Below, in pieces: positions 1 to 64,000 of a stretch of 64,000 bases of DNA. Numbering within the stretch: position 1 is the stretch's first letter; every line of letters begins with the position of its first letter. The stretch is from Bolinopsis microptera. Taxonomy: Eukaryota > Ctenophora > Tentaculata > Lobata > Bolinopsidae. Where the stretch lies: positions 20,147,975 to 20,211,974 of the forward strand of contig NC_087077.1 in NCBI RefSeq assembly GCF_026151205.1, written 5' to 3'. The position numbers and the translations under genes were made by a program. Under the pieces are notes generated by a model. It made no database searches and was not told the DNA's origin. It saw only the letters and a program-made list of their open reading frames with translations.

Positions 1-1149
1 AAAAGTGGTCGAAAGGTTCTTTTGACATTACCGTTGCACTTTTGCAGATAAGAACATGCCAGAGCTAGGGCTGCAGAACTAGTAGTGTAACTATGGTAAC
101 TAGTAGTGTTACAGGCCCTAGCAGAGTCAGGGTCAAAAGCCAAATTAAGTAACAAAAGTAGAAGCTTGTCTATCAATCGACATAAAGTATCCGAAAAGGG
201 ATAGCTGTATGACATTTTTAACTGCTTTTGACGACCAACGGGCAATGAACTAACAAGAGAGTAATCAGAGGAAAGATTAACGAGCAACAATTAAAACATT
301 TGATACAAGTTTCCTAACCTCTAATAGTATTATTTGCCATCTTTAGCCTACAAAACTAAAACACTAAGGTAACTAGTAGTGTAACTATGGTAACTACAAA
401 ACTAAAACACTAAGGGATCAAATTTCTTGACTCCAGTACCAGATGTTGTTAAAAGTGAGTGAACAGAAAACACGATGTGCTAAAGTTAAACTATGCGCAA
501 TACAGCTGCCCAATGCCCATATAACAGCTTTACAATGTCTAATGTCTATACTTATGTAACGTAGGTTCTGTAAATAGAAGTTTGAATACATTGTGAGAGT
601 AAACTGTAAACATGGTAACTATTAGTGTAACTATGGTAACTAGTAGTGTAACTATGGTAACTAGTAGTATGGTAACTGTTTACATGGCCTGACCTACCTG
701 GAGTAGTTACTAATTCACAAACTCAAAGTAATTGCTCAACAAACGTAATGATGAACTTTAAAGACCGTTACTATTGTTTGTACTAGCTATAATGGTAGTA
801 CAGTTACGGAATGTATTTGTATCGACGGTCCGCGAAGTTATCAAAAAGAACCAGAATTCATAATTATTACATTACGCAATTCACTTGGAAGCCTTAGGGT
901 GGGCTTACGGCTCATGACCGCATACATAACCATGATACGTACCTCTAGAAAATATCGATGCTCTAACAGGTATACAAATCTTTTCTCTCGGCAAGGCCGA
1001 GCAACAAACTATAACAAACTATAACATAAACTATAACTATAACATAAAGCAAAACTTACCCAACAAAAAGTCCTTGAATCGGTGCACACCTCCCAAACAG
1101 CCTGTAGATAGCGAATCTGTTCTCGGAGTACGCGCGTTACGAAAACCTC
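1..1149. other. Mostly unique intergenic DNA with scattered 21-bp module
   Basis: I see no gene here. Isolated short runs of the module GTGTAACTATGGTAACTAGTA occur near 85-115, 366-395 and 608-682. The same module builds the 63-bp satellite at 3.2 kb and the tetraspanin intron 1 array at 48 kb, so these look like seeds or remnants of that family. Confidence 0.5.
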
Positions 1150-1290
1150 GAAATTGGCAGGAACATGTTGCCACGTGACCCTAATTGAGACCAATGAGGG
1201 GGTTGCCCTGGTAACGCGTGATCTACCTGGGACTCCAATAGGAGGGTGGCAGGGTCACGTGGGTTGCTGAGCAACGCTGGTTGGTCCTGC
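1150..1290. promoter_or_regulatory. Promoter-like cluster: X-boxes, CCAAT boxes, E-boxes
   Basis: Within 140 bp I see a perfect X-box, GTTGCCCTGGTAAC (1202-1215), and a palindromic one, GTTGCTGAGCAAC (1263-1275). A third, GTTGCCACGTGAC (1167-1179), overlaps a CACGTG E-box, and a second CACGTG sits at 1256-1261. CCAAT boxes are at 1191-1195 and 1235-1239, with an inverted one (ATTGG) at 1153-1157. X-box plus CCAAT is the arrangement used by RFX and NF-Y factors at ciliary and MHC class II type promoters. The promoter role is inferred. No downstream gene could be identified on either side. Confidence 0.4.
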
Positions 1291-2261
1291 AGTTAGAGTT
1301 CTCTATCCTTTAGGGAAAGCTGGGATTTATGAGCTCTATGTCATGCACAGCGTAAATCCAGAGCCGATTAATTGCGGATAATCCTGCATATTTGCATGGT
1401 AATGTACATGTAAATATAAATGGATCTTGGTTGTCGGGTTTGTCACTTGATACCGGGTGACCCACCAACTAAGTGCAGAAACATTGACTCTTCCTGAACT
1501 GTGGCACATTTTACCAGGTTCTGAGGTCACGAGTAGTAAGCAAGCGGGGATGAGCTGACTGCTGATGTTGAAGCTATCTGCGCACAAATATTTCTAACAT
1601 AGATCAAACTCCTACTTAAAAACTAGACTATCTGATTCCCAGATGAAATAGTTATGACAAAATATCCATTCTCAAGCAGCCAGACTTTAAGGGAGCCGAG
1701 CTATGGTAACTAGTAGTGTAACTATGGTAACTAGAATCTAAAGCGGATATTCAGTTTAAACGCACGTACCGGCGTCTCCAGAAGATTACGCAGTGTTGTA
1801 AAAATAGTGGGAGGAGTAAAACTAGGTGGAGGTCGGGTCTAGAGTAGTAGTAAGAGTAAGTAAGAGAATTTTGGGGGAGGCACACGGCGGTACTGACTGT
1901 ACCGCCGTGTACCTCCGCCTAGGTACTGTACTTAGCTTTAGCCGTTCTCTTATCCCAATAAACGTTCAATAGCCTTGAGTAACTTGTAGTTTGTCGGGAA
2001 TTTTTAGTTGTAATTTATCAATATATAATTATAATAACTGGTTTAAGTAGTAAGTGAACAAGCTTTGTTTATTTATTTTATGCACATTGATATCAGTTCC
2101 AAAATATAACACGGACTTTATGATTGTTTAATTTTAAAATCGTAATCCCAGAATGTATCTGTCGGCAATCAGTAATAGTAATACATACCGATGAGGCCTT
2201 CTAAACCGCTACCGGATCATCAATTAAAATTCAGGCGATTTCATATGTGGTTTCCAAGTAA
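1291..2261. other. Intergenic DNA with one strong hairpin
   Basis: No gene is seen. Two copies of the 21-bp module lie at about 1704-1733. A hairpin at 1876-1916 has 18-bp arms with a single mismatch and a 5-nt loop. Confidence 0.4.
1876..1916. repeat. Near-perfect inverted repeat (hairpin)
   Basis: Left arm 1876-1893 and right arm 1899-1916 are reverse complements apart from one mismatch (C/T at the sixth base), around the loop TGACT. The core arm is ACACGGCGGTAC. No poly-T tail, transposon end or gene edge explains it. Confidence 0.6.
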
Positions 2262-2265
2262 ATGA

Positions 2266-2460: not shown

Positions 2461-3222
2461 CCGATCACAATAGTTCCACTTCAGTACAGCCATTCATGCC
2501 GCTGTGCCTCATGGCCACATTTCTACTGAGCTTCCACGAGTGATGGCACCTTTAGTTTTACATTGGTGACCATTATTTTATCAGTTTTAAAGGCAAGGTT
2601 ACAGCAAGGATGGAAGTCAAGCAGGGTGGCGCCAAAGGGTCCATTAGTGATGCAGATGATGCAGATGATGACTAGTCACTTATGGTTGGACCGGAACAGT
2701 TGTCTATGCACTCCTTCATAATAACATAATATTACGTTTATAAAGAGCTTAATTAACTGCAAGTCATCCAGGGGGTCGCGCTATTCAACTACTTTGAGAA
2801 TTACCGGAAGCTTGCTGGTTTCCTGTCATCTGCATTTTGACTAAAGATCACCCAAATGACTGTGTTTTGGCTCATGCTTATCAATTATCCATGGTTAATA
2901 GTTATGAAGCTTAAACTTCATGTCGCTTACCTTAAATATTCCTTTCAATTTTCTTGTAGCCGTAAACATTCTGCCATTCCCCAAACTTTGAACAATTAGC
3001 AAACATACCGATATTTCATGCCTGAAATACCGCTAAGCTACAGCCAAGCCTTCGGTAATTACCGTTTTATCCTAATTCAAAACAGTTTGTAGCAGGTAAA
3101 TTATAAAAACAGTATAGTTTCCAGACTCCGACTAATATAATAATACTCCCGTTACTTCAGATAAGCTGCTCATTTAGTTCATAATCCCCGCTCTTATCGT
3201 ATCAGAGGGAGATAGTAGTGGT
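2461..3222. other. Unique AT-rich DNA, nothing recognised
   Basis: No convincing open frame, RNA gene or transposon end is visible. A short GATGATGCA repeat occurs near 2648-2670. Confidence 0.4.
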
Positions 3223-3225
3223 TGT

Positions 3226-6190
3226 AGTAGCTGGAGATATGTAACTATGGTAACTAGTAGTGTTACGATGGTAACTAGTAGTTGTTGTAGTAGTTGGAGA
3301 TATGTAACTATGGTAACTAGTAGTGTAACTATAGTAACTAGTAGTTGTAGTAGTAGTAGCTGGAGATATGTAACTATGGTAACTAGTAGTGTTACTATAG
3401 TAACTAGTAGTTGTTGTAGTAGCTGGAGATATGTAACTATGGTAACTAGTAGTGTTACTATAGTAACTAGTAGTTGTAGTAGTAGTAGCTGGAGATATGT
3501 AACTATGGTAACTAGTAGTGTTACTATAGTAACTAGTAGTTGTTGTAGTAGCTGGAGATATGTAACTATGGTAACTAGTAGTGTAACTATAGTAACTAGT
3601 AGTTGTAGTAGTAGTAGCTGGAGATATGTAACTATGGTAACTAGTAGTGTTACTATAGTAACTAGTAGTTGTTGTAGTAGCTGGAGATATGTAACTATGG
3701 TAACTAGTAGTGTTACTATAGTAACTAGTAGTTGTAGTAGTATAGCTGGAGATATGTAACTATAGTAACTAGTAGTGTTACTATGGTAACTAGTAGTTGT
3801 TGTAGTAGCTGGAGATATGAAACTATGGTAACTAGTAGTGTTACTATAGTAACTAGTAGTTGTAGTAGTATAGCTGGAGATATGTAACTATAGTAACTAG
3901 TAGTGTTACTATAGTAACTAGTAGTTGTTGTAGTAGTTGGAGATATGTAACTATGGTAACTAGTAGTGTTACTATAGTAACTAGTAGTTGTTGTAGTAGC
4001 TGGAGATATGTAACTATGGTAACTAGTAGTGTAACTATAGTAACTAGTAGTTGTAGTAGTAGTAGCTGGAGATATGTAATTATGGTAACTAGTAGTGTTA
4101 CTATAGTAACTAGTAGTTGTTGTAGTAGCTGGAGATATGTAACTATGGTAACTAGTAGTGTTACTATAGTAACTAGTAGTTGTAGTAGTATAGCTGGAGA
4201 TATGTAACTATGGTAACTAGTAGTGTTACTATAGTAACTAGTAGTTGCTGTAGCAGCTGGAGATATGTAACTATGGTAACTAGTAGTGTTACTATAGTAA
4301 CTAGTAGTTGTAGTAGTATAGCTGGAGATATGTAACTATGGTAACTAGTAGTGTTACTATAGTAACTAGTAGTTGCTGTAGCAGCTGGAGATATGTAACT
4401 ATGGTAACTAGTAGTGTTACTATAGTAACTAGTAGTTGTTGTAGTAGCTGGAGATATGTAACTATGGTAACTAGTAGTGTTACTATAGTAACTAGTAGTT
4501 GTTGTAGTAGTTGGAGATATGTAACTATGGTAACTAGTAGTGTTACTATAGTAACTAGTAGTTGTTGTAGTAGCTGGAGATATGTAACTATAGTAACAAG
4601 TAGTGTTACTATAGTAACTAGTAGTGTTACTATGGTAACTAGTAGTGTTACTATAGTAACTAGTAGTTGTTGTAGTAGCTGGAGATATGTAACTATAGTA
4701 ACTAGTAGTGTTACTATAGTAACTAGTAGTAGTAGCTGGAGATATGTAACTATGGTAACTAGTAGTGTTACTATAGTAACTAGTAGTTGCTGTAGTAGCT
4801 GGAGATATGTAACTATGGTAACTAGTAGTGTTACTATAGTGACTAGTAGTTGTTGTAGTAGTTGGAGATATGTAACTATGGTAACTAGTAGTGTTACTAT
4901 AGTAACTAGTAGTTGTTGTAGTAGCTGGAGATATGTAACTATGGTAACTAGTAGTGTTACTATAGTAACTAGTAGTTGTTGTAGTAGCTGGAGATATGTA
5001 ACTATGGTAACTAGTAGTGTTACTATAGTAACTAGTAGTTGTTGTAGTAGCTGGAGATATGTAACTATGGTAACTAGTAGTGTTACTATAGTAACTAGTA
5101 GTTGTAGTAGTATAGCTGGAGATATGTAACTATGGTAACTAGTAGTGTTACTATAGTAACTAGTAGTTGCTGTAGTAGCTGGAGATATGTAACTATGGTA
5201 ACTAGTAGTGTTACTATAGTAACTAGTAGTTGTAGTAGTAGCTGGAGATATGTAACTATGGTAACTAGTAGTGTTACTATAGTAACTAGTAGTTGCTGTA
5301 GCAGCTGAAGATATGTAACTATGGTAACTAGTAGTGTTACTATAGTAACTAGTAGTTGTTGTAGTAGCTGGAGATATGTAACTATGGTAACTAGTAGTGT
5401 TACTATAGTAACTAGTAGTTGTTGTAGTAGTTGGAGATATGTAACTATGGTAACTAGTAGTGTTACTATAGTAACTAGTAGTTGTTGTAGTAGCTGGAGA
5501 TATGTAACTATAGTAACAAGTAGTGTTACTATAGTAACTAGTAGTGTTACTATGGTAACTAGTAGTGTTACTATAGTAACTAGTAGTTGTTGTAGTAGCT
5601 GGAGATATGTAACTATAGTAACTAGTAGTGTTACTATAGTAACTAGTAGTAGTAGCTGGAGATATGTAACTATGGTAACTAGTAGTGTTACTATAGTAAC
5701 TAGTAGTTGCTGTAGTAGCTGGAGATATGTAACTATGGTAACTAGTAGTGTTACTATAGTGACTAGTAGTTGTTGTAGTAGTTGGAGATATGTAACTATG
5801 GTAACTAGTAGTGTTACTATAGTAACTAGTAGTTGTTGTAGTAGCTGGAGATATGTAACTATGGTAACTAGTAGTGTAACTATAGTAACTAGTAGTGTAA
5901 CTATGGTAACTAGTAGTGTTACTATAGTAACTAGTAGTTGTTGTAGTAGCTGGAGATATGTAACTATGGTAACTAGTAGTGTTACTATAGTAACTAGTAG
6001 TTGTTGTAGTAGCTGGAGATATGTAACTATGGTAACTAGTAGTGTTACTATAGTAACTAGTAGTTGCTGCTGGAGATATGTAACTATGGTAACTAGTAGT
6101 GTTACTATAGTAACTAGTAGTGTACCTAACTATGGTAACTAGTAGTGTTACTATGGTAACTAGTAGCTGTTGTAGTAGTTGGAGATATAA
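3226..6190 (+). repeat. 63-bp satellite array (about 3 kb)
   Basis: The unit is 63 bp (checked 4450 to 4513). It begins GGAGATATGTAACTATGG and contains the perfect 14-bp palindrome GTTACTATAGTAAC plus the X-box-like GTAACTATGGTAAC. Internal variants carry extra TAG/TAGTAG triplets or extra 21-bp modules. One block at about 4500-4870 recurs almost unchanged at about 5420-5790, so there is higher-order duplication. Because 63 is a multiple of 3, long frames of up to 636 codons appear on both strands; their Ser/Thr/Tyr-only composition shows that they are not proteins. The 70-bp satellite at 20.35 kb is a related family in reverse orientation. Confidence 0.95.
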
Positions 6191-6522: not shown

Positions 6523-6968
6523 CAGAGTTTTACATTGCTGAAGTGCTAGCTCTCTCTGTCCTCAAAGTTTTACATTACTGAAGTGCTAGCTCTGTCCTAA
6601 GAGTTTTACATTACTGAAGTGCTAGCTCTGTCCTCAGAGTTTTACATTGCTGAAGTGCTAGCTCTGTCTGCATCAGAGTTTTACATTGCTGAAGTGCTAG
6701 CTCTGTCTGCATCAAAGTTTTACATTGCTGAAGTGCTAGCTCTGTCCTCAGAGTTTTACATTGCTGAAGTACTAGCTCTGTCCTCAGAGTTTTACATTGC
6801 TGAAGTGCTAGCTCTGTCCTCAGAGTTTTACATTGCTGAAGTGCTAGCTCTGTCCTCAGAGTTTTACATTGCTGAAGTGCTAGCTCTGTCCTCAGAGTTT
6901 TACATTGCTGAAGTGCTAGCTCTGTCCTCAAAGTTTTACATTGCTGGAGTGCTAGCTCTATCTGCCTC
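6523..6968 (+). repeat. 36-bp array of 3'-splice-site-like units
   Basis: About 12 units of 36 bp, each with a core GAGTTTTACATTGCTGAAGT followed by GCTAGCTCTGTCCTCA. Across each junction the unit reads as a possible branch point (CTGAA), a pyrimidine tract (CTCTGTCCTC) and AG, which is the shape of a 3' splice site. The last unit ends TCTGCCTCAG at 6961-6970, 6 nt before the ATG of the EF-hand gene. Two units carry the variant CTGTCTGCATCAG. Frames in this array are repeat artefacts. Confidence 0.9.
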
Positions 6969-6976
6969 AGGACACT

Positions 6977-7483
6977 ATGACGGGTATGACCGCTACCTAC
7001 AAGGGGCCGGTGTCAGCTATGGAGTACCTGGGAATCAAGGTGAAGCTGACAAACGAGGAGGAACAGGAAATAAAGGACTTCTTCACTAGATACGACACTG
7101 ATGATAACGGCATGTTGGATCTGGAGGAGCTACAGAAACTGTTCGCTAACTTCAACGTGGTGGCGCTGCAGGACGACATTAAAGCGTTCTTCGAGCGAGT
7201 AGACAAGGACAAGGACGGCACAGTGGACTATGATGAGTTGATGACGTATATAGAGGAGATACTGGCTGAGAAGTACACTAGTGAGGACATAGAGAGCGCG
7301 TTTAATCTGATAGATGAGGATGGGAGTGGGGAGGTGTCGCACGAGGAGGTGGCCGTTGCCATGGCGAAGGCGGACGTGGGGATTCCTCATGATGAGATAT
7401 TGTATTTGTTGGAGGAGGCGGATCTTAATAGAGATGGGACTATCAGTTTCTCAGAGTTTAGGAGCATTCTCTTTGGACTGTGA
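6977..7483 (+). CDS. Calmodulin-like four-EF-hand calcium-binding protein
   Basis: This reads as a complete 168-residue calmodulin/troponin-C-type Ca2+ sensor. Four canonical EF-hand loops are visible: residues 40-51 (DTDDNGMLDLEE), 76-87 (DKDKDGTVDYDE), 113-124 (DEDGSGEVSHEE) and 149-160 (DLNRDGTISFSE). Each has Asp at position 1, Gly at 6 and Glu at 12, so all four should bind calcium. Spacing of 36-37 residues between loops matches two EF-hand lobes. There is a roughly 35-residue N-terminal extension compared with calmodulin. The first ATG (6977) is used; another lies 9 nt downstream. There is no signal peptide or membrane segment, so it is probably cytosolic. An AG at 6969-6970 after a pyrimidine tract suggests that the coding exon is spliced to an upstream 5' UTR exon; otherwise it is intronless. 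A candidate AATAAA lies at 7761. Partner and pathway cannot be told. Confidence 0.85.
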   Translation: MTGMTATYKGPVSAMEYLGIKVKLTNEEEQEIKDFFTRYDTDDNGMLDLEELQKLFANFNVVALQDDIKAFFERVDKDKDGTVDYDELMTYIEEILAEKYTSEDIESAFNLIDEDGSGEVSHEEVAVAMAKADVGIPHDEILYLLEEADLNRDGTISFSEFRSILFGL

Positions 7484-8510: not shown

Positions 8511-8627
8511 TACCTTATCGGACCTTATTTGGACGGACATTAATTGAACGCTGGAGGCCCTTACGTTCATCTTAATGTCCGTTCAAATAAAGTCCGTTCA
8601 TTTAAGGTCCGTCCAAGTTAAAGTCCG

Positions 8628-9156
8628 TTGAATTTTTTTCAAACATTTTTCCACTTTGAACTTTTTGTCCAAAATATGACAACTATGAGAACTTTATTAT
8701 GCCTTAAGTTAACGAAGGAAAGGTTCTCCTTGGTCTGCCAGAAAACTCTACTAGTATATGAGGTTTTCAAGGGTCACTTGGCGGAAAAAGTCAACGGAAT
8801 TATGGCACTCAACAACATAGTTCATGAGTTAGTCCCCGCCAACATGACAAACTTTTTCCAGCCTCTAGATATTACGGTAAATCGTGTTGCCAAGGACATT
8901 GTCCGACGTTGTTATAGTTCATATTACTCAGGGGATGTAATGAAACAGTGCTAGGAAAACTCCAAGTGATTAAGGTTAACCTTAAGTTGTCTAAGATAAA
9001 ACCACTTCACGCCGAATGGCTTGTAAAAGTTAACACTGAAATGCAGGACCGGGGTAGTTTGATAAAAAAAAGGTTTCCATAAAGCTAGAAATCACTGATG
9101 CTTTAAGCATGGACTATTTCATGCACGAAAACCCATTTGATGAAGATGATGTGTGA
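8628..9156 (+). pseudogene. Broken DDE transposase (pogo/Tigger-like), C-terminal part
   Basis: The first frame has 108 codons up to a stop at about 8952. Its second half matches my memory of the DDE endonuclease domain of pogo/Tigger-like transposases: a VYEVFKGHL block, where the family usually has the second catalytic Asp, then VPANMTNFFQPLD and a VNRVAKD segment. After the stop, a different frame continues with a conserved-looking KPLHAEWL block and then a tail, so at least one frameshift and several stops break it. The N-terminal DNA-binding half is absent. In the first block the usual Asp appears to be replaced (YEVF). Family assignment is from remembered patterns, not a search. Confidence 0.65.
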
Positions 9157-10094: not shown

Positions 10095-11149
10095 TACTAT
10101 CTGCAGATTGCAGTGGAATGATACTAGCGACAGTCGGTACAGTGTACAAACCTAAACCATTCCCAATTACTAGCAGATTATACTGTGTATATAAATTATA
10201 ATTTTTGTTGTCTTTTTTAGCTGTGGTAATTAAAACTGAATTTAATGAAATGGAGCGTAAATGTGATGTTTAACCGTGCGTATCGACAGATTACCGAATT
10301 ACTGTCACTTTTAATCTGACAATTTGATGACCTGTTAAATTAAATCTTACAAATTCAAGGAAATGATCATAACAGTAATTATAATCAATGACCTTTCTAG
10401 GCATTTGAATTTTAGCGACTAAATATAAACAGAGATTACTAGATTAGTGAGATAATACCAGTAATATGGGTATGCGTGGACAATGTCCACCTAGAGGGGG
10501 CTCAATAACACAAACTGATGGCTGAGCAAGTAGGGAAAGCTGACTGAGCTGACTACTCAAGCTTACTGAGCTGACTACTGATACAAAATAAAAATAGTGG
10601 TCGCTATTAGATCATCTCCCCCAATCAGCAGAAACAAGAAATTGTTTCAATACTTGTAGTTGTAACATTGATAAACCCTGAAATATATATAGTATAGCAA
10701 CAATATACCCTGAAATCAGCACAGATAATGAACTGATGGACAAGGGAGTATTTAAGTCTGTTAAATATGGAGAGCAGCCATGAAACATGCATTGCAGGGG
10801 GACTACCTTCAATAAAGTGGTTCGTTGCTACTTGAAAGTCAATCATTGGATCCCATCAGGAGCCGAGATCAAAAATTTCACCAAACCGCCTATCGTAATT
10901 CCATATAGCCAACTTGCTGTAGAAAGTTATGCCCATAGATTGGCGATGAAACAAATTTTGTGGGGTTTTTTAGGCTCTATATTTTAATTTAACCAACCTA
11001 CATTGAGAACTTATCTTTTTAAATTTGATCACAGATGGTTCCAGATACATTTTATCTCCCATACAGTTAAACAAGGAACTGAAACTACTAGGTTCCGTAC
11101 AGACTCAACTCTGCACCCATGTCAATATGTTCATTATCTTGATTTATAC
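10095..11149. other. Unique intergenic DNA, nothing recognised
   Basis: Short frames on both strands near 10610-10990 have no recognisable domain and poor composition. A minor TGACTGAGCTGACTAC repeat lies near 10540-10580. Confidence 0.35.
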
Positions 11150-11224
11150 TATACTACAAGTAACTACTAGTTACTATAGTTACACTACTAGTTACCATAG
11201 TTACTTATATCTCCCATACTATAC
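11150..11224 (-). repeat. Left fragment of the 70-bp satellite
   Basis: About one unit of the same repeat that resumes at 20350. The LTR element interrupts it, and ATAC (11221-11224) is duplicated at 20350-20353. Confidence 0.9.
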
Positions 11225-12831
11225 TGTAAGCAGTGATTAATTGAGAGGAATTTAGGGTAATATTGTGTAATATGTAGATAGTGTAATGATTATAATAAGG
11301 CGGTCGTGGGGTCCAGTATGTGACGTAGTATTTTGGGCATATATTAGTAGACGACAGTTATTGCAGTTTAAGTGCAGAGAGGTCAGTTTAACATATGTTT
11401 GAGTCAGTACGAGGTTGAATTATGGATTGTTTACAGAATACTAGTGATACTATGTTGTGGCTATCGACAGGACAGTTTGCAATTCCCGGGAAATGGTAGA
11501 TTGTTTAGACTATCAGAGCCCGGGAGGAAAATAGTGTTAGTTTTTGGAGATAGCGGAGTGCCAGTTTACCCGATCGAGAGGGGGGTCATTTTGATACCGG
11601 GCAGGTTCTGTAGCTAGAACCTGTTAAGGTTAGGTCGTTTAGTTAGGTAGATGGTTATAGTGGTAAGTATAAGATTGGCGGCCGTAGAATAGTGGGGCAT
11701 TACGTAATTACTGTTATCAGGCTTGGTTGTGGCCGACACCAGGGGATGTCTTGACAACACTGGGCTCTGGCAGAGCGGGAGTCAGCGCTGGTTGACTTAG
11801 ATAGGTAAAGCTAGACTAAGAGTAGGAGCTAGAACCGGTTAAGGTTAGGTCGTTTAGTTAGGCAGATGGTTATAGTGGTAAGTATAAGATTGGCGGCCGT
11901 AGAATAGTGGAGCATTACGTAATTACTGTTATTAGGCTTGGTTGTGGCCGACACCAGGGGATGTCTTGACAACACTGGGCTCTGGCAGAGCGGGAGTCAG
12001 CGCTGGTTGACTTAGATAGGTAAAGCTAGACTAAGAGTAGGAGCTAGAACCGGTTAAGGTTAGGTCGTTTAGTTAGGCAGATGGTTATAGTGGTAAGTAT
12101 AAGATTGGCGGCCGTAGAATAGTGGAGCATTACGTAATTACTGTTATCAGGCTTGGTTGTGGCCGACACCAGGGGATGTCTTGACAACACTGGGCTCTGG
12201 CAGAGCGAGAGCCAGCAATGGTTGACTCAGATAGGTAAAGCTAGATTAAGAGTAGGATTAACGGCAGGAAGTAGGTTGCGTAATATTTGAGGCAATATGA
12301 ATCGGAGCAATTAGGAATTTGTTGCACAGCATTTGAGGCAATATGAGTCTAAGTGACTAAGCGTTGGTTGAGCAAATATTCGATTATTCATTGTTCAGTT
12401 AAGTACCTTGGGCACCTTTATTATACCCCTTGTTTGCATTCTCACCCTATTCGATAGAGGGTCATGGTTGATACCAGACTAGTGTAAGGGACCAGGACCA
12501 GTTATGGTTGGGGCCTGGTGAGCACGGATGGAACGTGTCGTTAGAGGTTTAGAATCGACAGTGGTTATTTCAGGGCACCTAGATTAGGCACGGTCAAGGC
12601 GAGTTGACCGTGCTATCCGTGTTTTATGTTGCAGCACTAGATCGCTGAGCGTTTATGGGCGATACGAGTCTGGTTAATTAGGATTTGAAGTAGAGGTTGT
12701 CGAATTATTCATTGTATTGTTTCATAGTTTAGCTTTGTTTACCCTTTATTATCACGCTCGTTTCCATTGTCCAAACCCTTAATTAAATGCAAATAAACTT
12801 CGAACCGGGAAGCAAGTGTCGACTGCTTACA
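11225..12831 (+). repeat. 5' LTR (1,607 bp)
   Basis: Starts TGTAAGCAGTG and ends ACTGCTTACA. It contains three 215-bp subrepeats from 11613 (next starts 11828 and 12043), each including GGCGGCCGTAGAATAGTGG. AATAAA at 12792-12797 is a candidate polyadenylation signal 35 nt from the end. An 81-codon frame in both LTRs lacks an ATG and is not supported as a gene. Confidence 0.95.
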
Positions 12832-12833
12832 AG

Positions 12834-14400: not shown

Positions 14401-15438
14401 TAAGGACTCAATATGATGAATTGAGGCAGCAGGGAGCACAGCTAAGAAGAGATGGATTCAGAGAGGGTAAGCTAGAAGCTAGGCAGGAGAAGGAGACCGA
14501 AAAGAGGAGAATCAGAGAAGCGAACAGAGCAGCGGGTAAGAAATACCCATTAATGAAACCTCGGATGTTTGTGCTGGGGAAACACAGCTTTAGAACCTTC
14601 CTGAGCGGGTTTAAAATATTTGCCAATGCTGCGGACATCTTGGATGAAGACTTGGTGGACATGATAATGACGTACTTGGACCCCAAGGCACAGAGGAGAG
14701 TGGAGACCCTTCGATTAACCCGGGACGAGAAGAGAAATGTAGAGGCGAGTTTGGAGAGGAGGACAGAGGTGCTATGTGATGTGCATTCAAAGGCGGGTGC
14801 AGGAAGAGACTTCTTGAGATGCGTCAGAAAGAGGAAGAGACAATTTCGGATTTTGCAGCTAGAGTCACTGACATGGCAGATGAGGCATATGCACCGGAGG
14901 AGGAGGAGATCAAGAAGACCATCAGGCTAGATGTATTTACAGCTGGGGTATTAAAGGATGAAATCGGGATCGAGTTAATCAAGTCACGAGTGCAAGATTT
15001 TGAGGCCGCGCTAAAGAGGGCAGTTAAGTTGGATGGGAGATCCTGGCGAGTCGTAGCCCTAAAACCAGGGAAGAATGAGGAGGAACTTTTGTTTCAAATC
15101 GAGGAGGATATAGAGATGGATGAGGGAGTGATAAACCGAGTGATGGAAGAGAACCGGCCGAGAAGAGACATCGGTGCTTGTTACACCTGTGGACAGCATG
15201 GACATTTCGCAAAGGAATGTAGAAAGCCCCCACTTGTCATGGATGCGGGAGACAGGGTCATATTGCAATGGATTGTACGCAAGGACACGGTGGCCGAGGA
15301 GGTCTTCAAAGAGGGCAAGATCCTCTTGTACAGAAAGCTATGGACGAAAGAAATTTATCATTGGTAGCAGGTAGAAGAACTGATAAGACATGGGAGGAGA
15401 CCAACCACCTTTGTCGACAGAGGGGATGGATTACTTGA
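14323..15438 (+). pseudogene. Broken Gag, segment 1 (two CCHC zinc knuckles)
   Basis: Three frames must be joined to follow it. The first part (to about 14810) is a charged coiled-coil-like stretch, rich in Glu, Gln and Arg, followed by a capsid-like region. The frame shifts at about 14810, where an MRQKEEETISDFAARV motif typical of Gag capsid C-termini appears. The first zinc knuckle, CYTCGQHGHFAKEC, is at 15179-15220. A further frame change lies between 15220 and 15235, and the second knuckle, CHGCGRQGHIAMDC, follows from 15235. That frame closes at 15436-15438. Gag packages element RNA in the cytoplasm. As it stands this cannot give an intact protein. Confidence 0.75.
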
Positions 15439-34212: not shown

Positions 34213-34245
34213 CTAGCTATCATCATATCTACCAAGCAGAGACTA

Positions 34246-47137: not shown

Positions 47138-47296
47138 AGTACAGTGTAACCATGGTTACAGTACTGTGTTACCATGGTTACAGTACTGTGTTACCAGGTT
47201 ACAGTACTGTGTTACCATGGTTACAGTGCTGTGTTACCAGGTTACAGTACTGTGTTACCATGGTGACAGTACTGTGTTACCATGGTTACAGTACGC
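47138..47296 (+). repeat. 22-bp array of X-box palindromes
   Basis: The unit is GTGTTACCATGGTTACAGTA plus CT, about 7 copies. Two units have lost bases (GTTACCAGGTTAC). It lies about 600 bp before the tetraspanin start codon, so it could act as a promoter-proximal element; that is inference. Confidence 0.85.
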
Positions 47297-47894: not shown

Positions 47895-48056
47895 ATGCAG
47901 CCGCTAATACCAGCTGAGAAGCGTATAAAGGTAGCGGACACACTCCGGCTACTATTTCACTACTGTAACATAGTAAACCTGACACTGGGACTAATAGTGT
48001 TCGGGGTGGGGGTGTCACTAGTTCTCTCCCCTCTACCTCTCCCTGCTGGCAAAGAT
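47895..48056 (+). CDS. Tetraspanin exon 1 (N-terminus and TM1)
   Basis: It encodes 54 residues: a short cytoplasmic N-terminus, TM1 (LLFHYCNIVNLTLGLIVF onwards) and the start of the first extracellular loop (SPLPLPAGKD). It ends at GAT before GTAAGT. Its last 66 nt are the part amplified 12 more times in the following intron. Confidence 0.75.
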
Positions 48057-51000: not shown

Positions 51001-53784
51001 GATATTATTAGTAATATATTACATAAATTACTAAATAGTAGGATATTATTAGTAATATATTACATAAATTACTAAGTAGTAGGATATTATTAGTAATATA
51101 TTACATAAATTACTAAGTAGTAGGATATTATTAGTAATATATTACATAAATTACTAAGTAGTAGGATATTATTAGTAATATATTACATAAATTACTAAGT
51201 AGTAGGATATTATTAGTAATATATTACATAAATTACTAAGTAGTAGGATATTATTAGTAATATATTACATAAATTACTAAGTAGTAGGATATTATTAGTA
51301 ATATATTACATAAATTACTAAGTAGTAGGATATTATTAGTAATATATTACATAAATTACTAAGTAGTAGGATATTATTAGTAATATATTACATAAATTAC
51401 TAAGTAGTAGGATATTATTAGTAATATATTACATAAATTACTAAGTAGTAGGATATTATTAGTAATATATTACATAAATTACTAAGTAGTAGGATATTAT
51501 TAGTAATATATTACATAAATTACTAAGTAGTAGGATATTGTAAAATCCGGATTGGAGTATTATTTATGAGTCGCATTGTTGTAATGTATTCTGGGTAAAA
51601 TTATCTTTATCCCGGTTGTTGCGACAAGTAAAAATGCTCTTATTAGGGAAAGGAGATTACTCGACGTTTCAATGTAACTACATCGTATTCATGATCTAAA
51701 AACAAGTGTTAAAAATTCAAAACGTAAAAAACATATATCTGAGGCAAAATTTGTGTACATTAATTTATTTTTAATCAATCAACTTTATCCAAAAATTCGA
51801 TACAAAAAAGTCATAACAAAATAGTAGGATATTATTAGTAATATGTTACATAAATTACTAAGTAGTAGGATATTATTAGTAATATATTACATAAATTACT
51901 AAGTAGTAGGATATTATTAGTAATATATTACATAAATTACTAAGTAGTAGGATATTATTAGTAATATATTACATAAATTACTAAGTAGTAGAATATTATT
52001 AGTAATATATTACATAAATTACTAAGTAGTAGGATATTATTAGTAATATATTACATAAATTACTAAGTAGTAGGATATTATTAGTAATATATTACATAAA
52101 TTACTAAGTAGTAGGATATTATTAGTAATATATTACATAAATTACTAAGTAGTAGGATATTATTAGTAATATATTACATAAATTACTAAGTAGTAGGATA
52201 TTATTAGTAATATATTACATAAATTACTAAGTAGTAGGATATTATTAGTAATATATTACATAAATTACTAAGTAGTAGGATATTATTAGTAATATATTAC
52301 ATAAATTACTAAGTAGTAGGATATTATTAGTAATATATTACATAAATTACTAAGTAGTAGGATATTATTAGTAATATATTACATAAATTACTAAGTAGTA
52401 GGATATTATTAGTAATATATTACATAAATTACTAAGTAATAGCATATTATTAGTAATATATTACATAAATTACTAAGTAGTAGGATATTATTAGTAATAT
52501 ATTACATAAATTACTAAGTAGTAGGATATTATTAGTAATATATTACATAAATTACTAAGTAGTAGGATATTATTAGTAATATATTACATAAATTACTAAG
52601 TAGTAGGATATTATCAGTCATATATTACATAAATTACTAAGTAGTAGGATATTATTAGTAATATATTACATAAATTACTAAGTAGTAGGATATTATTAGT
52701 AATATATTACATAAATTACTAAGTAGTAGGATATTATTAGTAATATATTACATAAATTACTAAGTAGTAGGATATTATTAGTAATATATTACATAAATTA
52801 CTAATGGTGAGTTCACAAGACAGCTGGTACAGTTACAATTCCGGTTGGAACTTTGCCAACTTGGTGGCAAACATAGTTTCCTTTAGAAGAAGGTCTTCAT
52901 TAGCCACTCCTCCTGATCAGGGACAAAAGGAAATCGCGGCATGTGTGGAATCGCGATTTTCCCCATTATTTGCGACAAATTTTATGTATAGTCTTATGTA
53001 TAGTCTGTTAAAAATCGCGGTATCGCGATTTTTGGGCATAATAATTGCGATTTTCTTTTGTCCCCGCTCCTGATCAATGAGGGATATAAAATCTTTGTAA
53101 CTTAAAAGCTTTCAATCACATTACTTCACACTAAACCCTTACTCCTTCATAAACTTCAACATATTTCAGGGCATGCTGGGTATTCACGGCTGCTACTGGG
53201 TTCAAGAAAACAGACTGAAACTCTACGCTGTCTCCACGATAGCAGCTATTGTGTTAGAAGCAGGGCTCGGATCCATGGCCATTATAAAGGAGCAGTCCAT
53301 CATGGACCACATAGACTCGACCCTGGAGAACTTCAGAAGCATGAACAGTAACCATAGTAACATGCCTTTACGGGAGTACAGACAGTCTCAGTACGATACT
53401 AACGCTACCTACAAGAACATTGTGGATAACGTGCACACAGAGCTATCCTGCTGCTCCTTTATAAATATTAGCAATAACATCAGCTCCTGTCACCACCGTA
53501 TCAGTGGTACACCTCTACCAGGCTGTGTGGAAACCTTCAGGGACTTTATCAATATCAAGCTAACTTACATACGGTGTTTAGCATTCATGTTGGTTCCTAT
53601 CCAGTTGTTCTGTTTAGGGTTTGATCTGATGGTTCTGAAGACACTGCAGGTTACTAAGGAGTACGATAAGTTGGAGAGGGAACTGAGTAATAGAAAGAGG
53701 GAGAAGAGGAACAGTATGGGGTACACTACTATTGGGGATGTGGAGAACATTAACCTACAGGCTGCGTACAATAGAGTGGTGTAA
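47895..53784 (+). CDS. Tetraspanin, three coding exons
   Basis: The gene model is exon 1 at 47895-48056, exon 2 at 50068-50121 and exon 3 at 53170-53784, giving 276 residues. Both introns are GT-AG and phase 0 (donors GATGTAAGT and GTGGTGAGT; acceptors CTCTCAG and TATTTCAG). Tetraspanins organise membrane microdomains. TM1 is at about 19-44, TM2 at 55-72, TM3 at 89-111 and TM4 at 205-230. GMLGIHGCYWVQENRLKL matches the usual TM2-TM3 loop. The large extracellular loop has a CC pair (166-167), with CCS in place of the signature CCG, then single cysteines at 179 and 191: four in all. Four N-glycosylation sequons lie in it. The small extracellular loop is only about 10 residues, shorter than usual, so a missed exon in intron 1 is possible. 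The C-tail is basic (RKREKR). The start is an ATG in a good TM1 context. The stop TAA lies in GTAACCATGGTTAC. Confidence 0.8.
48057..49650 (+). repeat. Compound array of duplicated exon-1 ends and 5' splice sites
   Basis: After the true donor (G at 48057), twelve more copies of the last 22 codons of exon 1, each ending GCAAAGATGTAAGTA, have donor G at 48145, 48275, 48468, 48619, 48749, 48879, 49009, 49139, 49248, 49378, 49508 and 49638. Spacings are 88, 109, 130, 151 or 193 bp, all equal to 67 + 21n: a 67-bp exon-plus-donor part and one to six copies of the 21-bp module GTGTAACTATGGTAACTAGTA. No pyrimidine tract and AG precede the exon parts, so they are alternative donors rather than cassette exons. 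Reading on from exon 1 gives a stop at the next copy (TGT AAG TAG). Confidence 0.95.
49651..50067 (+). other. 3' part of tetraspanin intron 1
   Basis: Unique AT-rich intron. An X-box-like GTTACCATGGTTAC is at about 49854-49867. It ends TCCTATTCTCTCAG, a good acceptor, at 50067. Confidence 0.6.
50068..50121 (+). CDS. Tetraspanin exon 2 (TM2)
   Basis: A 54-nt phase-0 exon encoding ISVIYGTLLISAVIVILV, which supplies TM2. It is too short to be found by frame length and rests on its acceptor, its donor (GTGAGT at 50122) and a continuous fit to the family between exons 1 and 3. Confidence 0.7.
50382..50668 (+). repeat. Spacer block, copy 1
   Basis: Starts GTAAAATCCGGATTGGAGTA and ends CATAACAAAATAGTAGG. 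It has no coding frame or terminal repeats and looks identical to copy 2. Confidence 0.85.
51533..51819 (+). repeat. Spacer block, copy 2
   Basis: Second copy of the block, at a 1,151-bp offset, with the same flanking variant GTAATATGTTACAT on its right. Confidence 0.85.
52918..53066 (+). mobile_element. 149-bp hAT-type MITE, copy A
   Basis: Inverted termini CAGGGACAAAAGG and CTTTTGTCCCCG (one change from perfect). The perfect 8-bp target duplication CTCCTGAT (52910-52917 and 53067-53074) and a CAGGG terminus fit the hAT superfamily. The interior has several CGCGATTTT-like inverted blocks and no coding capacity. It lies in tetraspanin intron 2, about 100 bp before exon 3. Confidence 0.9.
53170..53784 (+). 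CDS. Tetraspanin exon 3 (TM3, large loop, TM4, tail)
   Basis: Terminal exon following TATTTCAG. It opens in phase 0 with GGC ATG CTG (GML), so the ATG at 53173 is an internal Met. It encodes 204 residues: TM3, the four-cysteine large loop, TM4 (LAFMLVPIQLFCLGFDLMVL) and a basic tail ending AYNRVV. Confidence 0.85.
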   Translation, partial: GMLGIHGCYWVQENRLKLYAVSTIAAIVLEAGLGSMAIIKEQSIMDHIDSTLENFRSMNSNHSNMPLREYRQSQYDTNATYKNIVDNVHTELSCCSFINISNNISSCHHRISGTPLPGCVETFRDFINIKLTYIRCLAFMLVPIQLFCLGFDLMVLKTLQVTKEYDKLERELSNRKREKRNSMGYTTIGDVENINLQAAYNRVV

Positions 53785-54377: not shown

Positions 54378-55125
54378 ATCTCTACTCTGGTTGTGTGACC
54401 ATGGTTACTCTGGTTGTGTGACCATGGTTACTCTGGTTGTGTGACCATGGTTACTCTGGCTGTGTGACCATGGTTACTCTGGCTGTGTGACCATGGTTAC
54501 TCTGGCTGTGTGACCATGGTTACTCTGGTTGTGTGACCATGGTTACACTGGTTGTGTGACCATGGTTACACTGGTTGTGTGACCATGGTTACTCTGGTTG
54601 TGTGACCATGGTTACTCTGGTTGTGTGACCATGGTTACTCTGGCTGTGTGACCATGGTTACTCTGGTTGTGTGACCATGGTTACTCTGGCTGTGTGACCA
54701 TGGTTACTCTGCCTGTGTGACCATGGTTACTCTGACTGTGTTACCATGGTTACTCTGGCTGTGTGACCATGGTTACCCTGGCTGTGTGACCATGGTTACT
54801 CTGGTTGTGTGACCATGGTTACTCTGGTTGTGTGACCATGGTTACTCTGACTGTGTTACCATGGTTACACTGGTTGTGTGACCATGGTTAATCTGACTGT
54901 GTTACCATGGTTACTCTGACTGTGTGACCATGGTTACTCTGGCTGTGTGACCATGGTTACTCTGGTTGTGTGACCATGGTTACTCTGGCTGTGTTACCAT
55001 GGGTACTCTGGCTGTGTTACCATGGTTACTCTGACTGTGTTACCATGGTTACTCTGACTGTGTTACCATGGTTACTCTGACTGTGTGACCATGGTTACTC
55101 TGACTGTGTGACCATGGTTACCAGA
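54378..55125 (+). repeat. 24-bp array of X-box palindromes (about 31 units)
   Basis: The unit is CTCTGGTTGTGTGACCATGG plus TTAC. Each carries GTGACCATGGTTAC or GTTACCATGGTTAC. Variants alternate GGTTG, GGCTG and GACTG. It lies about 600 bp beyond the tetraspanin stop. Confidence 0.95.
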
Positions 55126-55737: not shown

Positions 55738-56650
55738 CAACACGAGCAGTAACCATGGCAACACGAGCAGTGTGATATATAAACTGAGCAGTAACCATGG
55801 CAACACGAGCAGTGTGATATATAAACTGAGCAGTGTTACCATGGCAACACGAGCAGTGTAATATATAAACTGAGCAGTGTTACCATGGCAACACGAGCAG
55901 TGTGATATATAAACTGAGCAGTGTTACCATGGCAACACGAGCAGTGTGATATATAAACTGAGCAGTGTTACCATGGCAACACGAGCAGTGTGATATATAA
56001 ACTGAGCAGTGTTACCATGGCAACACGAGCAGTGTAATATATAAACTGAGCAGTGTTACCATGGCAACATGAGCAGTGTGATATATAAACTGAGCAGTGT
56101 TACCATGGCAACATGAGCAGTGTGATATATAAAGTGAGCAGTGTTACCATGGCAACACGAGCAGTGTGATATATAAACTGAGCAGTGTTACCATGGCAAC
56201 ATGAGCAGTGTGATATATAAACTGAGCAGTGTTACCATGGCAACACGAGCAGTGTGATATATAAACTGAGCAGTGTTACCATGGCAACACGAGCAGTGTG
56301 ATATATAAACTGAGCAGTGTTACCATGGCAACATGAGCAGTGTGATATATAAACTGACCAGTGTTACCATGGCAACACGAGCAGTGTGATATATAAACTG
56401 AGCAGTGTTACCATGGCAACATAAGCAGTGTGATATATAAACTGAGCAGTGTTACCATGGCAACATGAGCAGTGTGATATATAAACTGAGCAGTGTTACC
56501 ATGGCAACACGAGCAGTGTGATATATAAAGTGAGCAGTGTTACCATGGCAACACGAGCAGTGTGATATATAAACTGAGCAGTGTTACCATGGCAACACGA
56601 GCAGTGTGATATATAAACTGAGCAGTGTTACCATGGCAACACGAGCAGTC
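55738..56650 (+). repeat. 44-bp array with perfect X-boxes (about 20 units)
   Basis: The unit is GAGCAGTGTTACCATGGCAA then CACGAGCAGTGTGATATATA plus AACT. Each carries GTTACCATGGCAAC, an exact GTNRCC-NN-RGYAAC. The first two units have CAGTAACC instead of CAGTGTTACC. GATATATAAA gives a TATA-box-like element about 25 nt from each X-box. Confidence 0.95.
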
Positions 56651-57539: not shown

Positions 57540-57724
57540 TGCAGTAACCATGGTAACAACAGTGTAACCATGGTAACAACAGTGTAACCATGGTAACAAC
57601 AGTGTAACCATGGTAACAACAGTGTAACCATGGTAACAACAGTGTAACCATGGTAACAACAGTGTAACCATGGTAACAACAGTGTAACCATGGTAACAAC
57701 AGTGTAACCATGGTAACAACAGTG
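57540..57724 (+). repeat. 20-bp array of X-box palindromes (9 units)
   Basis: The unit is AGTGTAACCATGGTAACAAC, with GTAACCATGGTAAC in each copy and no variation in the inner units. Confidence 0.95.
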
Positions 57725-60000: not shown

Positions 60001-60083
60001 GAGTGAGAAGATGTCTTTTAGCCTTGGTACGTTCTTGCCATCTTGGAGAGGGAGGCTTGCTGGCAGTTAGAGAGGGTCACACA

Positions 60084-60232: not shown

Positions 60233-60260
60233 GTCACACAGCGTCGGCCACTAAGTGTTT

Positions 60261-61022: not shown

Positions 61023-62084
61023 TTCAGGTTCTGCTTAGCAGTGTAGGAGTTAAGTTCCCAGCAGGACTAGTTGGGTGAGTATGGGGTTTAGTGCTCAGGA
61101 CAGTGGAGTCGTCTATAAGCTCAGGATTCGTTTATTAAATAAATCAAAGTTGGCCGCCGCAAATCATATTGACGCATTAAATGGCATAGTGTGTTATGAA
61201 ACTCTAGGTCTTGGTTTTTAGATATAAATGCTAAGATATATGTGATTTGATAACTTTTTTTCAAGCACGTTTATGAAGAGTTTCTTTTTGGCATAGATCC
61301 AATCAATAAAGCCATGCATCTAATGTCCGGCATAAGTTAACTATGTGTAACCATGGTAACTAGGGTAATGTCCGGCAACAGTTTTGGACGTTCCATGTTA
61401 TTCCGGCACCCTGGAATTTGACCATAAAATTAAAAGTTTCGGTACCGTTTGAAACTTTACGGAAGTTTGGTGGTCCGACAATGTTTTTGGTCCGAAGTTG
61501 GCCGGTCCGGTCATTGCCGTTCCACTATATAAGCATTCAAGTATAATCAATTTCTCCTTGTAACATCATATAAATACCTTTAAAACACCGCAAAGTTCTA
61601 ACTTGGCGCTGGTTTATCGAAGAGTCGAAGGATTGAAAAGATTTCAAACAGCTTGTTTTTATTTGATTTGAACAGTTTACTTTCACTTATCTGTCATTAT
61701 CGATAATATCCTTGGCTTACTTTTACCACATAATTTGTTGCTTTGTCTTGTTTGAAGTTCTACTTTTCACGATCAAATAGAGTCCTCGAATGAAGCTGCC
61801 AAAGGCTGCTGTTTCAGGTAAATAGGTGCAATACAGAATACTTAACAGTTTTACTTATCATTACAGGTGTCTTCATCGTCACAAAGGGTATGGTAGGACT
61901 TAACTAACTTGAGGTATTCTACTATGGTCAATAATTTAGTTAGGTTTTTGGACAGCTTGTACTTCTATAAATATATTTGATATAGTTCTATTTGATTTAA
62001 TAGTCCATCAGGGTCCAGTAGTTCTTTAGGTTTTACTGATAGCCCTGTTTGCATTCAACAGTCCATTTAACAGTCCATTTAAGG
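61023..62084. other. AT-rich DNA, partly related to 57-59 kb
   Basis: TAATGTCCGGCA occurs twice (61322, 61366) around GTAACCATGGTAAC (about 61349-61362). Possible small exons near 61791 and 61866 (each with splice-like borders) are too short to call. Confidence 0.35.
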
Positions 62085-62210
62085 ATGGAGGATGAATTCT
62101 CCGCATTCCAACAGTATTTTGTGTTGTTCACTGTGCTGATTCCGGGAAGCATTCTCTTTACGCTCTCATTATATTGTACGATAAGATATCGTTTATTTAA
62201 AATTGAATAA
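62085..62210 (+). CDS. Candidate 41-residue single-pass membrane protein
   Basis: Short frame from ATG (GGATGG context) to TAA. The acidic start (MEDEFSAFQQ) is followed by a hydrophobic stretch at residues 11-32 (YFVLFTVLIPGSILFTLSLY) and a short basic tail (RYRLFK). This layout fits a tail-in small integral membrane peptide or a last exon carrying one membrane helix. No family is recognised. The fragment GAATTCTCCGCAT, with stops after it, also occurs near 57736. Chance cannot be excluded at this length. Confidence 0.3.
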   Translation: MEDEFSAFQQYFVLFTVLIPGSILFTLSLYCTIRYRLFKIE

Positions 62211-64000
62211 TTATGGACCTGTCAAGGATTGCAGCCCAGTTAAGAGCTACTTGTGCCATGTAAGGGATAACTGAGGTCAAGTGACCACCGATCCTATCAC
62301 GTGACCGCCGAGTACAATAGGAATAGGGCTTATCTTAGTGTTTGTTTAGCTTATCAGTAGTTTTAAAAGCACTCCGTGGGAAATTGATGTGGTGTCTTGA
62401 CATTTATCTAATTCACGCGTGAGAAACTCACGCGTTACGGCGGAGTAGGGCTCGAAAGGGTGTAGTCAAGGTTCTTTTTTATTACGTTTACATTGGTTTA
62501 GCTGAAAGTGGATTAATTTGTTTAATAGTTATATCCTGTAGTACAACGTGTACTCCACCAATTGTTGAGTATTGAGACCTATTGAAAGTTATATTATGCA
62601 GCCCTACGCGATCCCTGCCAAACCAACTGAAGTCCTATAAAGCAAGTAAATTATTGATACCCCCATTTTTAATTCTATTCGGATTTCGGATTTACTTAAC
62701 ATTATCATCGAGACACACTTCTCACCTTTACTAAGTTATTGTTGAAATCTAGCGGGGCTACAACCAAATTGTTGACACACACTTCTATCCTTTTCTGTTT
62801 CTGATATCGGGACATACTTCTCGATCGTTTAGTTATAGTGACTGTAGAAATCAGCATCTGTTATAGTTAGCCCAACTTACCACTTCAGTTTGATAACGTA
62901 GAGTAAAACCTAGTTTACTACTATAAACTAATTTAGAATCTACGAAGGAAAGTTATTGATTGAAGCTTTTCTTTTCTACTAGCAACTGATATATTTACTC
63001 TTTTAGAATGTTTCAGTGGTGCTATAACGCTGATAAAAATATCAGTAATTTCCTTCAAATGCAAAATGTTTCAATTTGATGATCTGATATCTGATAAGGA
63101 TAGATAACATTTCACGTCTCTGAGCACTACTAGGATAAACACTAATTTTTACTGTAGAAATAAACGGACAGATTCCGATTTCGAATAATCAAATTGTACG
63201 ATCAGAAACTACATTCTCGGCTTTAATTTGGACGATTTGCCAGTTCCAATGCTCATAATATAATTACTAATTATGCTCATAATTACTAATTAGGCCTCTT
63301 TAGGTTTGGGCATTTTTGGCTGGGTAAAACGCACTGTAACACTGGTAACAGTAACCACTTATAACCATGGTAACCAGTTATTTGAGAATTTTCTGTACTC
63401 TGTACTCATACTCAGGGCCCGTTTATAATGTTGACCGCTAATGCAGGTTTGGTAACGCTTAAATTAGGTCCGATTTGGGAGTATTTTACTTACTGAGTAC
63501 TATAAAGTTATTATATCGTTAACTTCAGCCAATCTCGACCTGAATCCTTTCACCTCCCCTTAAAGGCGTGACATTACATCTCCTTAGAACATTACAAACT
63601 TCCCTAGCGATTAAAAGTGCAAACTTCAAGGGATTGGCGGTTTCTCAAAGACTTTTTGAATGAAAAACGATCTCAAACAGGTAAGTTTTTTAGTTTGTGT
63701 ATTGTGAGTGGCTTCTACTAATTTAAAGTTTTCTCTTTTATGCATAATATATAATATATAATAGCGCATACTTCTTTTCATACCTTCATCGGAAAACTAT
63801 GAAGAAATATTTTAGATCACAATAAATTGTAACTAAAAGGATTTTAACGGGTGATACTCGTAAAATATCTGTTCCATATATAGGACCGTCGACGAGTCCA
63901 ACTCGGCGCGCGTCCTGGTAGGTTGTAAACCTACAAAAAGGATTCACACGTGTGCACAACTCAACAGTAACCATGGTAACTAACAAATCAACAGTTATCA
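62211..64000. other. AT-rich DNA to the window end
   Basis: No gene is supported. TAACGCGTGA-type palindromic text lies near 62415. X-box-like sites are ATAACCATGGTAAC (about 63362) and GTAACCATGGTAAC (about 63967). A third diverged copy of the 57.07-kb segment lies near 63620-63720. A 66-codon minus-strand frame at 63786 has no domain. Confidence 0.4.

Follow-up and report, generated by a model that had tools for sequence, protein, structure and literature searches.

The window analysed here comprises 64,000 bp of the genome of the ctenophore Bolinopsis microptera (C6:20147975-20211974, contig NC_087077.1) and lies 0.72-0.78 Mb from the contig end. Tandem arrays make up 44.6% of it, and a number of arrays with differing units share a 13- or 14-bp core resembling the X-box, the site of RFX proteins. 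By relaxed match, 305 X-boxes lie inside and 24 outside arrays called by Tandem Repeats Finder (TRF). A search of the window recovered all eight cores reported by the initial annotation, each in its place, within the following features (window positions).

605-668, + strand: short X-box array (TRF), 21-bp unit, family A, core GTAACTATGGTAAC
3213-6171, + strand: X-box array (TRF), 21/63-bp units, family A, core GTAACTATGGTAAC, 92 relaxed X-boxes
11146-11225, - strand: single unit of the 20346-21964 array, severed from it by an LTR (long terminal repeat)-type element inserted between
20346-21964, - strand: X-box array, 70-bp unit with two 21-bp family-A-like units, core GTTACCATAGTTAC, 46 relaxed X-boxes
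32970-33489, + strand: X-box array, 36-bp unit, 13-mer cores GTTACTTAGCAAC / GTTACTTAGTAAC
40011-40419, + strand: X-box array, 31-bp unit, core GTTGCTAGGTAAC
40530-40785, - strand: X-box array, 36-bp unit, inverted relative of 32970-33489, with the reverse complement of GTTACTTAGCAAC
40930-41550, + strand: X-box array, 42-bp unit, core GTTGCTAGGTAAC
47136-47294, + strand: X-box array, 22-bp unit, core GTTACCATGGTTAC; the unit resembles an insert at 46475-46508
47990-49644, + strand: X-box higher-order array, family A units within a 130-bp repeat, core GTAACTATGGTAAC
54383-55121, + strand: X-box array, 23-bp unit, core GTGACCATGGTTAC (24 copies, 54395-55108)
55738-56649, + strand: X-box array, 44-bp unit, core GTTACCATGGCAAC (19 copies, 55835-56627)
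57544-57724, + strand: X-box array, 20-bp unit, core GTAACCATGGTAAC (9 copies)

X-box arrays and their distribution

The X-box arrays fit the definition of minisatellites, with tandem units of ~10-100 bp. Among TRF arrays with at least 2.5 copies and a unit of at least 10 bp, consensus units with the core number 11 of 49 in the window, 4 of 43 in the end sample and 0 of 21 in the interior, whereas shuffled units would give 0.16, 0.08 and 0.00, respectively. The end sample comprised 14 stretches situated 0.3-0.4 Mb from contig ends (70 kb), joined in this count by L037 (L numbers denote fetched loci), and the interior sample comprised 16 stretches (96 kb, 38.5% GC). Arrays occupy 24.4% of the end stretches, with 27 X-boxes in arrays and 7 single, and 9.6% of the interior stretches, with one X-box in all; the end-stretch X-boxes are confined to 4 of the 14 loci, so that the end-versus-interior contrast rests on few places. 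On whole contigs, 8 of 25 clusters of GTTACCATGGTAAC on C1 fall in the first Mb and 0 in the last, and among 30 clusters of GTAACCATGGTTAC on C1-C4, the terminal 1 Mb of the contigs holds 7 where 2.8 would be expected (P=0.017), and a limit of 1.5 Mb takes in 11 where 4.1 would be expected (P=0.0015). The recurrence of the motif in arrays is real and not a product of chance, and the arrays lean to chromosome ends. As a separate observation, the first 300 bases of contig C2 (C2:1-1500, L036) hold GTTACCATGGTTAC and GTTACCATGGTAAC at 21-bp-like spacing.

That unrelated arrays share one core, as had been proposed, holds in that many arrays have different flanks around it; the arrays are not all independent, however. 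The 33.0 and 40.5 kb arrays have one common unit in inverted orientation, the units of the 0.6, 3.2, 20.4 and 48 kb arrays read as a common 21-bp AGTAGT-type unit, and the 11.15 kb piece belongs to the 20.35 kb array. Masking the cores and grouping the 15 X-box arrays (window and ends) by shared flank words yields 12 groups for 8-mers, 6 for 7-mers and 3 for 6-mers; some of this sharing may be due to chance. Further arrays on C1 either resemble the 3.2 kb family among the matches listed (L060, L061 and L062) or have different flanks. Clustering of arrays by 12-mers was not used, as arrays became merged via the core itself.

Grammar of the motif and its relation to RFX

The motif exceeds chance expectation by far, against both window shuffles and genome-wide reversed controls. 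In the window, GTNRC-N4-GYNAC occurs 266 times, whereas 20 dinucleotide-shuffled versions average 3.25; the form with gap 3 occurs 70 times versus 3.5. Across the genome (264.65 Mb in 232 contigs, array copies included), GTTRC-N4-GYAAC is found 6,905 times and its reversed control 693 times; for GTTRC-N3-GYAAC the corresponding counts are 4,696 and 600, whereas gap 2 (1549 versus 1026) and gap 5 (1659 versus 684) are weak. The everted half-site control was uninformative, since GTAAC matches both halves. At gap-4 sites in non-array DNA the centre is YATR in 22 of 29, a narrowness that would be more readily explained by shared ancestry than by a multitude of binding sites of separate origin.

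The near-palindromic form of the cores had suggested that fold-back, through hairpins, slippage or replication pausing, drives repeat birth. The counts argue otherwise. Perfect palindromes (GTTACCATGGTAAC, 786 sites; GTAACCATGGTTAC, 212 sites) are much rarer than the asymmetric GTTACCATGGTTAC (1827 forward and 1991 reverse sites, ~816 expected from independent halves). Strong enrichment is restricted to gaps 3 and 4, and a palindrome permuted at constant composition is nearly flat (1213 versus 1012). Because perfect palindromes are not favoured, fold-back is a very improbable driver. A discovery run for exact 5-mer palindromes over array units found nothing, its criterion being too strict.

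The RFX X-box is GTNRCC N0-3 RGYAAC, with the monomer site GTTRCY (PMC10530576, PMC3414849). The motif described here shares its half-sites, their inverted arrangement and a spacing of 1-2 bp (5-mer gaps 3 and 4), and many sites pair a strong with a weak half, as do Drosophila RFX targets (PMC3414849). RFX DNA-binding domains (PF02257) were found by genome search on C9 and C4, the C9 exon matching hRFX1 1dp7 with E 2.3e-24. The proposed identity as an RFX-type site is thus consistent with the published consensus and with the encoded RFX domains, and RFX may bind the motif, although several of the cores reported earlier only nearly fit the consensus. Unlike RFX X-boxes, most window copies lie in minisatellites or in inserts with duplicated flanks, and the commonest of the exact forms counted contains GTAAC as one half; the likeness is one of sequence.

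Some X-boxes do resemble regulatory sites. GTTGTCATGGCAAC, at C2:17630860 (L117), lies 213 bp upstream of the first tektin match (C2:17630459-17630647) and is a candidate ciliary X-box; of five tektin-adjacent stretches, L117 is the one with a near-canonical X-box near the gene, L118 has a weak match ~2.9 kb from the gene and the other three have none. CACGTG occurs near 7 of 31 single X-boxes versus 112 of 4000 random positions (3 of 9 singles with a GTTGC half, 4 of 22 others), while CCAAT is not enriched (5/31 versus 728/4000). One such place in the window is the following.

1202-1275, + strand: two single X-boxes with GTTGC halves (GTTGCCCTGGTAAC, GTTGCTGAGCAAC), CACGTG nearby, without flanking duplication

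A role as a protein sponge or boundary had also been proposed; in a wider form, selection would favour the motif as a sponge for RFX, a boundary or a regulator, and the arrays would be retained on that account. The consensus match and the tektin-proximal site, which suggests that X-boxes are used in this genome, speak for such a role, yet the cores within arrays diverge about as fast as their flanks: mismatches number 231/7559 (3.06%) in cores versus 261/7653 (3.41%) in flanks over 32 X-box arrays, some of them overlapping or nested, and the difference scatters both ways among the 32. The arrays thus give no sign of this selection, and the asymmetric form outnumbers the symmetric one; we judge selection for a sponge, boundary or regulator quite improbable. 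The ctenophore loop-anchor motif was considered as an identity for the X-box and ruled out, that motif being GC-rich with two CpGs and bound by CTEP1/CTEP2, in a report whose main text mentions RFX 0 times (PMC12221973).

Some single X-boxes lie between direct repeats

In what follows, D-X-D denotes a target sequence D, an X-box piece X and a second copy of D. Direct repeats around a site were scored, a score of at least 10 was taken as positive, and random non-array positions served as background. In a discovery set of 30 single X-boxes from the window and end stretches, 8 are flanked by such repeats (P=3e-7); the rate at random positions is 1.75% in the window and ends together and 2.3% in the window. 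Control motifs from the same sequence gave 0/168 for CCAAT, 4/138 for other palindromic 6-mers, 3/183 for unpaired GTTAC/GTAAC halves and 2/22 for CACGTG. All eight flanked singles belong to the 14-mer class GTWAC-YATR-GTWAC (hereafter GTWAC14), i.e., 8 of 16 members of the class versus 0 of 14 of other types. One lies at L047:4574 (D 17 bp, insert 31 bp), and the others are in the window.

349-415, + strand: D-X-D at X-box 381, 21-bp direct repeats, 25-bp family-A X-box insert
22824-22898, + strand: D-X-D at X-box 22857, 25-bp diverged repeats (3 mismatches), 25-bp insert
23197-23250, + strand: D-X-D at X-box 23212, 14-bp direct repeats, 26-bp insert
25208-25260, + strand: D-X-D at X-box 25221, 10-bp direct repeats, 33-bp insert
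32052-32096, + strand: D-X-D at X-box 32067, 15-bp repeats (1 mismatch), 15-bp insert consisting of the bare X-box and one base
46453-46530, + strand: D-X-D at X-box 46492, 22-bp direct repeats (46453-46474, 46509-46530), 34-bp insert
61321-61377, + strand: D-X-D at X-box 61347, 12-bp direct repeats, 33-bp insert

The inserts can approach the bare motif, measuring 14 bp at L156 and 15 bp at window 32067 and L050:2506. The length of D varies from 9 to 25 bp and lacks the fixed value of a miniature inverted-repeat transposable element (MITE) or DNA transposon; such variation points to staggered-break repair or target-primed insertion rather than to a fixed-cut transposase. In BLAST searches of window singles against the fetched loci, the X-box at 46492 interrupts a dispersed repeat, and among the matches listed the copies at L008 (C4) and L053 (C8) are uninterrupted and hold the 22-bp target once, so that the X-box piece at 46492 would have come from outside. 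Its 34-bp insert in turn matches the unit of the 47.1 kb array (95% over 40 bp, among the matches listed).

Full X-boxes also occupy the gaps of short D-gap-D structures at large, being found in 5 of 38 in subtelomeric non-array DNA (95 kb; ~0.17 expected) and in 0 of 8 in interior non-array DNA (87 kb). Whatever the spacer, the density of such structures in the window and end stretches (38 in 95 kb, a few of them overlapping; window, L037 and L042-L055) is ~4 times that of the interior (8 in 87 kb; L002-L017).

Insertion and expansion as a proposed origin of X-box arrays

The best explanation of these observations is that the X-box-like core occurs as two populations. X-boxes that have a GTTGC half or are spaced as 13-mers resemble ordinary RFX-type sites; they occur in unique DNA, in some arrays and, as GTTGCCATGGCAAC, in a tandem unit of 1243 bp. 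GTWAC14, by contrast, is best explained as a short insert. A piece of 14-34 bp carrying GTWAC14 would enter a new site and 9-25 bp of target would be duplicated on both sides, as insertion into staggered breaks followed by fill-in would leave D-X-D. From this pair of direct repeats, slippage or unequal exchange would then yield a minisatellite of unit D+X. Arrays with unrelated flanks would share the core X because the array unit is D+X. The donor of the piece was probably the array units, acting as template; we infer this, as well as the precedence of insertion over expansion and the agent. The scheme is the simplest account of unrelated units with one core, of singles among arrays and of the local kinship of the two. 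We give it an even chance, mobility being deduced from the footprints.

Several points weigh against it. The GTWAC14 class was defined after the data were seen, and replication was weaker. For the latter, 40 sites were chosen by eye, non-randomly, for lying apart among 100 listed places for each of GTTACCATGGTTAC and GTAACCATGGTTAC, to which 8 of 17 C1 sites and 11 of 20 further fetched stretches were added. Sites inside TRF arrays were dropped (5/30, 1/10 and 2/8, the last two being L019 and L028), and in a whole rescan of L018-L034, L100-L115 and L121-L160, 45 in-array sites, 11 in a ~320-bp element and 3 in a 1243-bp element were removed. Of the 39 GTWAC14 singles left on C1 and C2, outside arrays and these two repeats, 5 score at least 10, but L021 and L136 carry X-box sequence inside D; the remaining 3 of 37 (L131, L154 and L156) correspond to P=0.027 against a background of 1.75% and P=0.009 against 1.14%. 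Other types gave 1 of 16 (L114), again with X-box sequence in D. The replication rate is above background and far below the discovery rate. Pooled with the discovery set, and leaving out L021, L114 and L136 for that X-box sequence in D, GTWAC14 gives 11/53 versus 0/29 for other types (P=0.0065, Fisher test). The neatest replication case is L156, in which an 11-bp direct repeat surrounds exactly the 14-mer.

Further, a single empty-site case was found, consisting of two paralogous copies in one genome, and deletion between direct repeats would also yield an empty site. The gap-3 singles (n=7) all score below 10, and duplications leave the 13-mer arrays (33.0, 40.0, 40.5 and 40.9 kb) unexplained. 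Of 33 array breakpoints, 16 are no more than 1 bp away from the edge of a core (7.2 expected), but the method is fragile, some zero extensions being due to a first-base mismatch. Neither an enzyme nor an autonomous partner was found.

Moreover, D-X-D could be a contracted array. On this account the singles are contraction products and array fragments spread by segmental duplication, with no mobile insert involved. An array D(XD)n does contract to D-X-D, and among the matches listed the 3.2/48 kb and 47.1 kb families have related singles nearby. However, the 22-bp target of 46492 belongs to a dispersed repeat that is intact, with the target single, at L008 and L053, and L156 shows a bare 14-mer between copies of an unrelated D; we therefore regard contraction as unlikely.

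A further alternative dispenses with insertion: RFX-bound open sites would be fragile or recombination-prone, and breaks at X-boxes near chromosome ends would produce tandem duplications, letting arrays nucleate on the X-boxes already there. PRDM9 motifs, for instance, occur in human minisatellites. The RFX-like spacing and half-site rules, the presence of RFX genes, the lean of arrays and motif to chromosome ends and the excess of CACGTG near singles would all fit; in frogs, a link between recombination and the minisatellites of subtelomeres has been described, with breakage at short motifs left as an open alternative (PMC10794172). Nevertheless, X-boxes other than GTWAC14, which include the best RFX sites, lack flanking duplications (0/14 in discovery; in replication 1/16, its repeat being X-box sequence), and the empty sites of the 46492 repeat are without any X-box. 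Fragility of pre-existing sites is accordingly, in our view, another unlikely origin, on a par with contraction.

In its boldest form, this scheme would have a nuclear mobile sequence as small as 14 bp (GTWAC14, an X-box look-alike) copied into new sites with 9-25 bp target duplications, each insertion providing the direct-repeat precursor of a new minisatellite. It would thus seed many unrelated subtelomeric arrays, perhaps with RFX or an X-box-reading nuclease as its agent, a proposal we put forward only tentatively. The birth of minisatellites is seldom seen; here arrays that differ in their flanks have a defined sequence in common, and some singles bear an insertion-like footprint of flanking duplication and, in one case, an empty site. 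If true, this would be a sequence-defined path by which a tiny insert becomes a tandem array in the nucleus of an animal, and apparent transcription-factor sites could arise in large numbers with no selection for binding. Searches of the open-licence PMC literature gave no report of X-boxes within minisatellites or of these 14-mers as repeats.

Other elements carrying or adjoining X-boxes

Two repeats carry X-boxes elsewhere in the genome. A dispersed repeat of ~320 bp, with at least 87 matches (40 of 1070 candidates scored), reads CACGTG, X-box, CACGTG and is sometimes tandem (L038-L041, L078-L095); the relaxed X-box is kept in 19 of 22 copies, one of which was chosen for its X-box, and 8 copies differ at position 3, the N of GTNRCC. 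The 1243-bp tandem unit with GTTGCCATGGCAAC is ~99% identical across several contigs (L096-L099, L102, L106) and contains a frame with IALTETWL, which we take to be typical of non-LTR endonucleases. Rfam gave nothing in L096, the window or L040. One large mobile unit carrying all sites was rejected for the window, where BLAST found neither the 320-bp nor the 1243-bp repeat. The earlier suggestions that the motif is spread by a mobile unit and that it drives repeat birth nonetheless gain evidence from the flanking duplications, the one empty-site case and these two X-box-carrying repeats.

The element that divides the 70-bp X-box array left one array unit at 11146-11225, with the remainder from 20346. 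Window 11225-12832 and 18743-20350 are direct copies, 99.6% identical over 1608 bp and each with a 3 x 215-bp tandem, and between them lie a CCHC zinc-knuckle frame (14780-15367) and a protease-like DTG frame (16328-16774). The segment 11225-20350 thus looks like a young LTR-type retroelement inside the array, likely flanked by a 4-bp target duplication. Elsewhere in the window are an open frame with four EF hands (6956-7483), a DDE_1 endonuclease fragment (8622-8954) and a tetraspanin-like open frame (53101-53784) with the X-box-like GTAACCATAGTAAC at 53348.

Comparison with known systems

As in the scheme for minisatellite birth between short flanking direct repeats reportedly set out by Haber and Louis in 1998, D-spacer-D would be the array precursor here, with the difference that the spacer is one recurring motif. 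The PRDM9 motif of human hypervariable minisatellites is likewise one protein motif in otherwise unrelated arrays near chromosome ends; it is a different type of motif from the X-box. Frog subtelomeric minisatellites resemble the present arrays in clustering at ends and in the enrichment of short motifs in their units, and transposable-element pieces expand there; the motifs are tetramers, and the available text describes no common 14-mer core with flanking duplications (PMC10794172). In the sister genus, an unplaced scaffold of Mnemiopsis leidyi is a tandem repeat of TACATGGAGTTACAATGT, also with GTTAC and CATGG (PMC11797021), and is possibly a related array.

In working, the closest known kind appears to be the mobile palindromic GC clusters of yeast mitochondria (PMC4478555), with which hairpin-forming elements of sponge mitochondria have been grouped for comparison (PMC2800124). 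GC clusters, like the X-box pieces, are tiny near-palindromic pieces with many dispersed copies, occurring as singles and, by a title cited there, in tandem arrays, and flanked by direct repeats resembling target-site duplications. Many dispersed copies with target-site-like duplications were found here too, with the weaker replication described above. Unlike the yeast clusters, the X-box pieces are nuclear, not GC-rich and linked to minisatellite birth, and their duplications are variable at 9-25 bp, in contrast to AG or ACT in yeast (PMC4478555).

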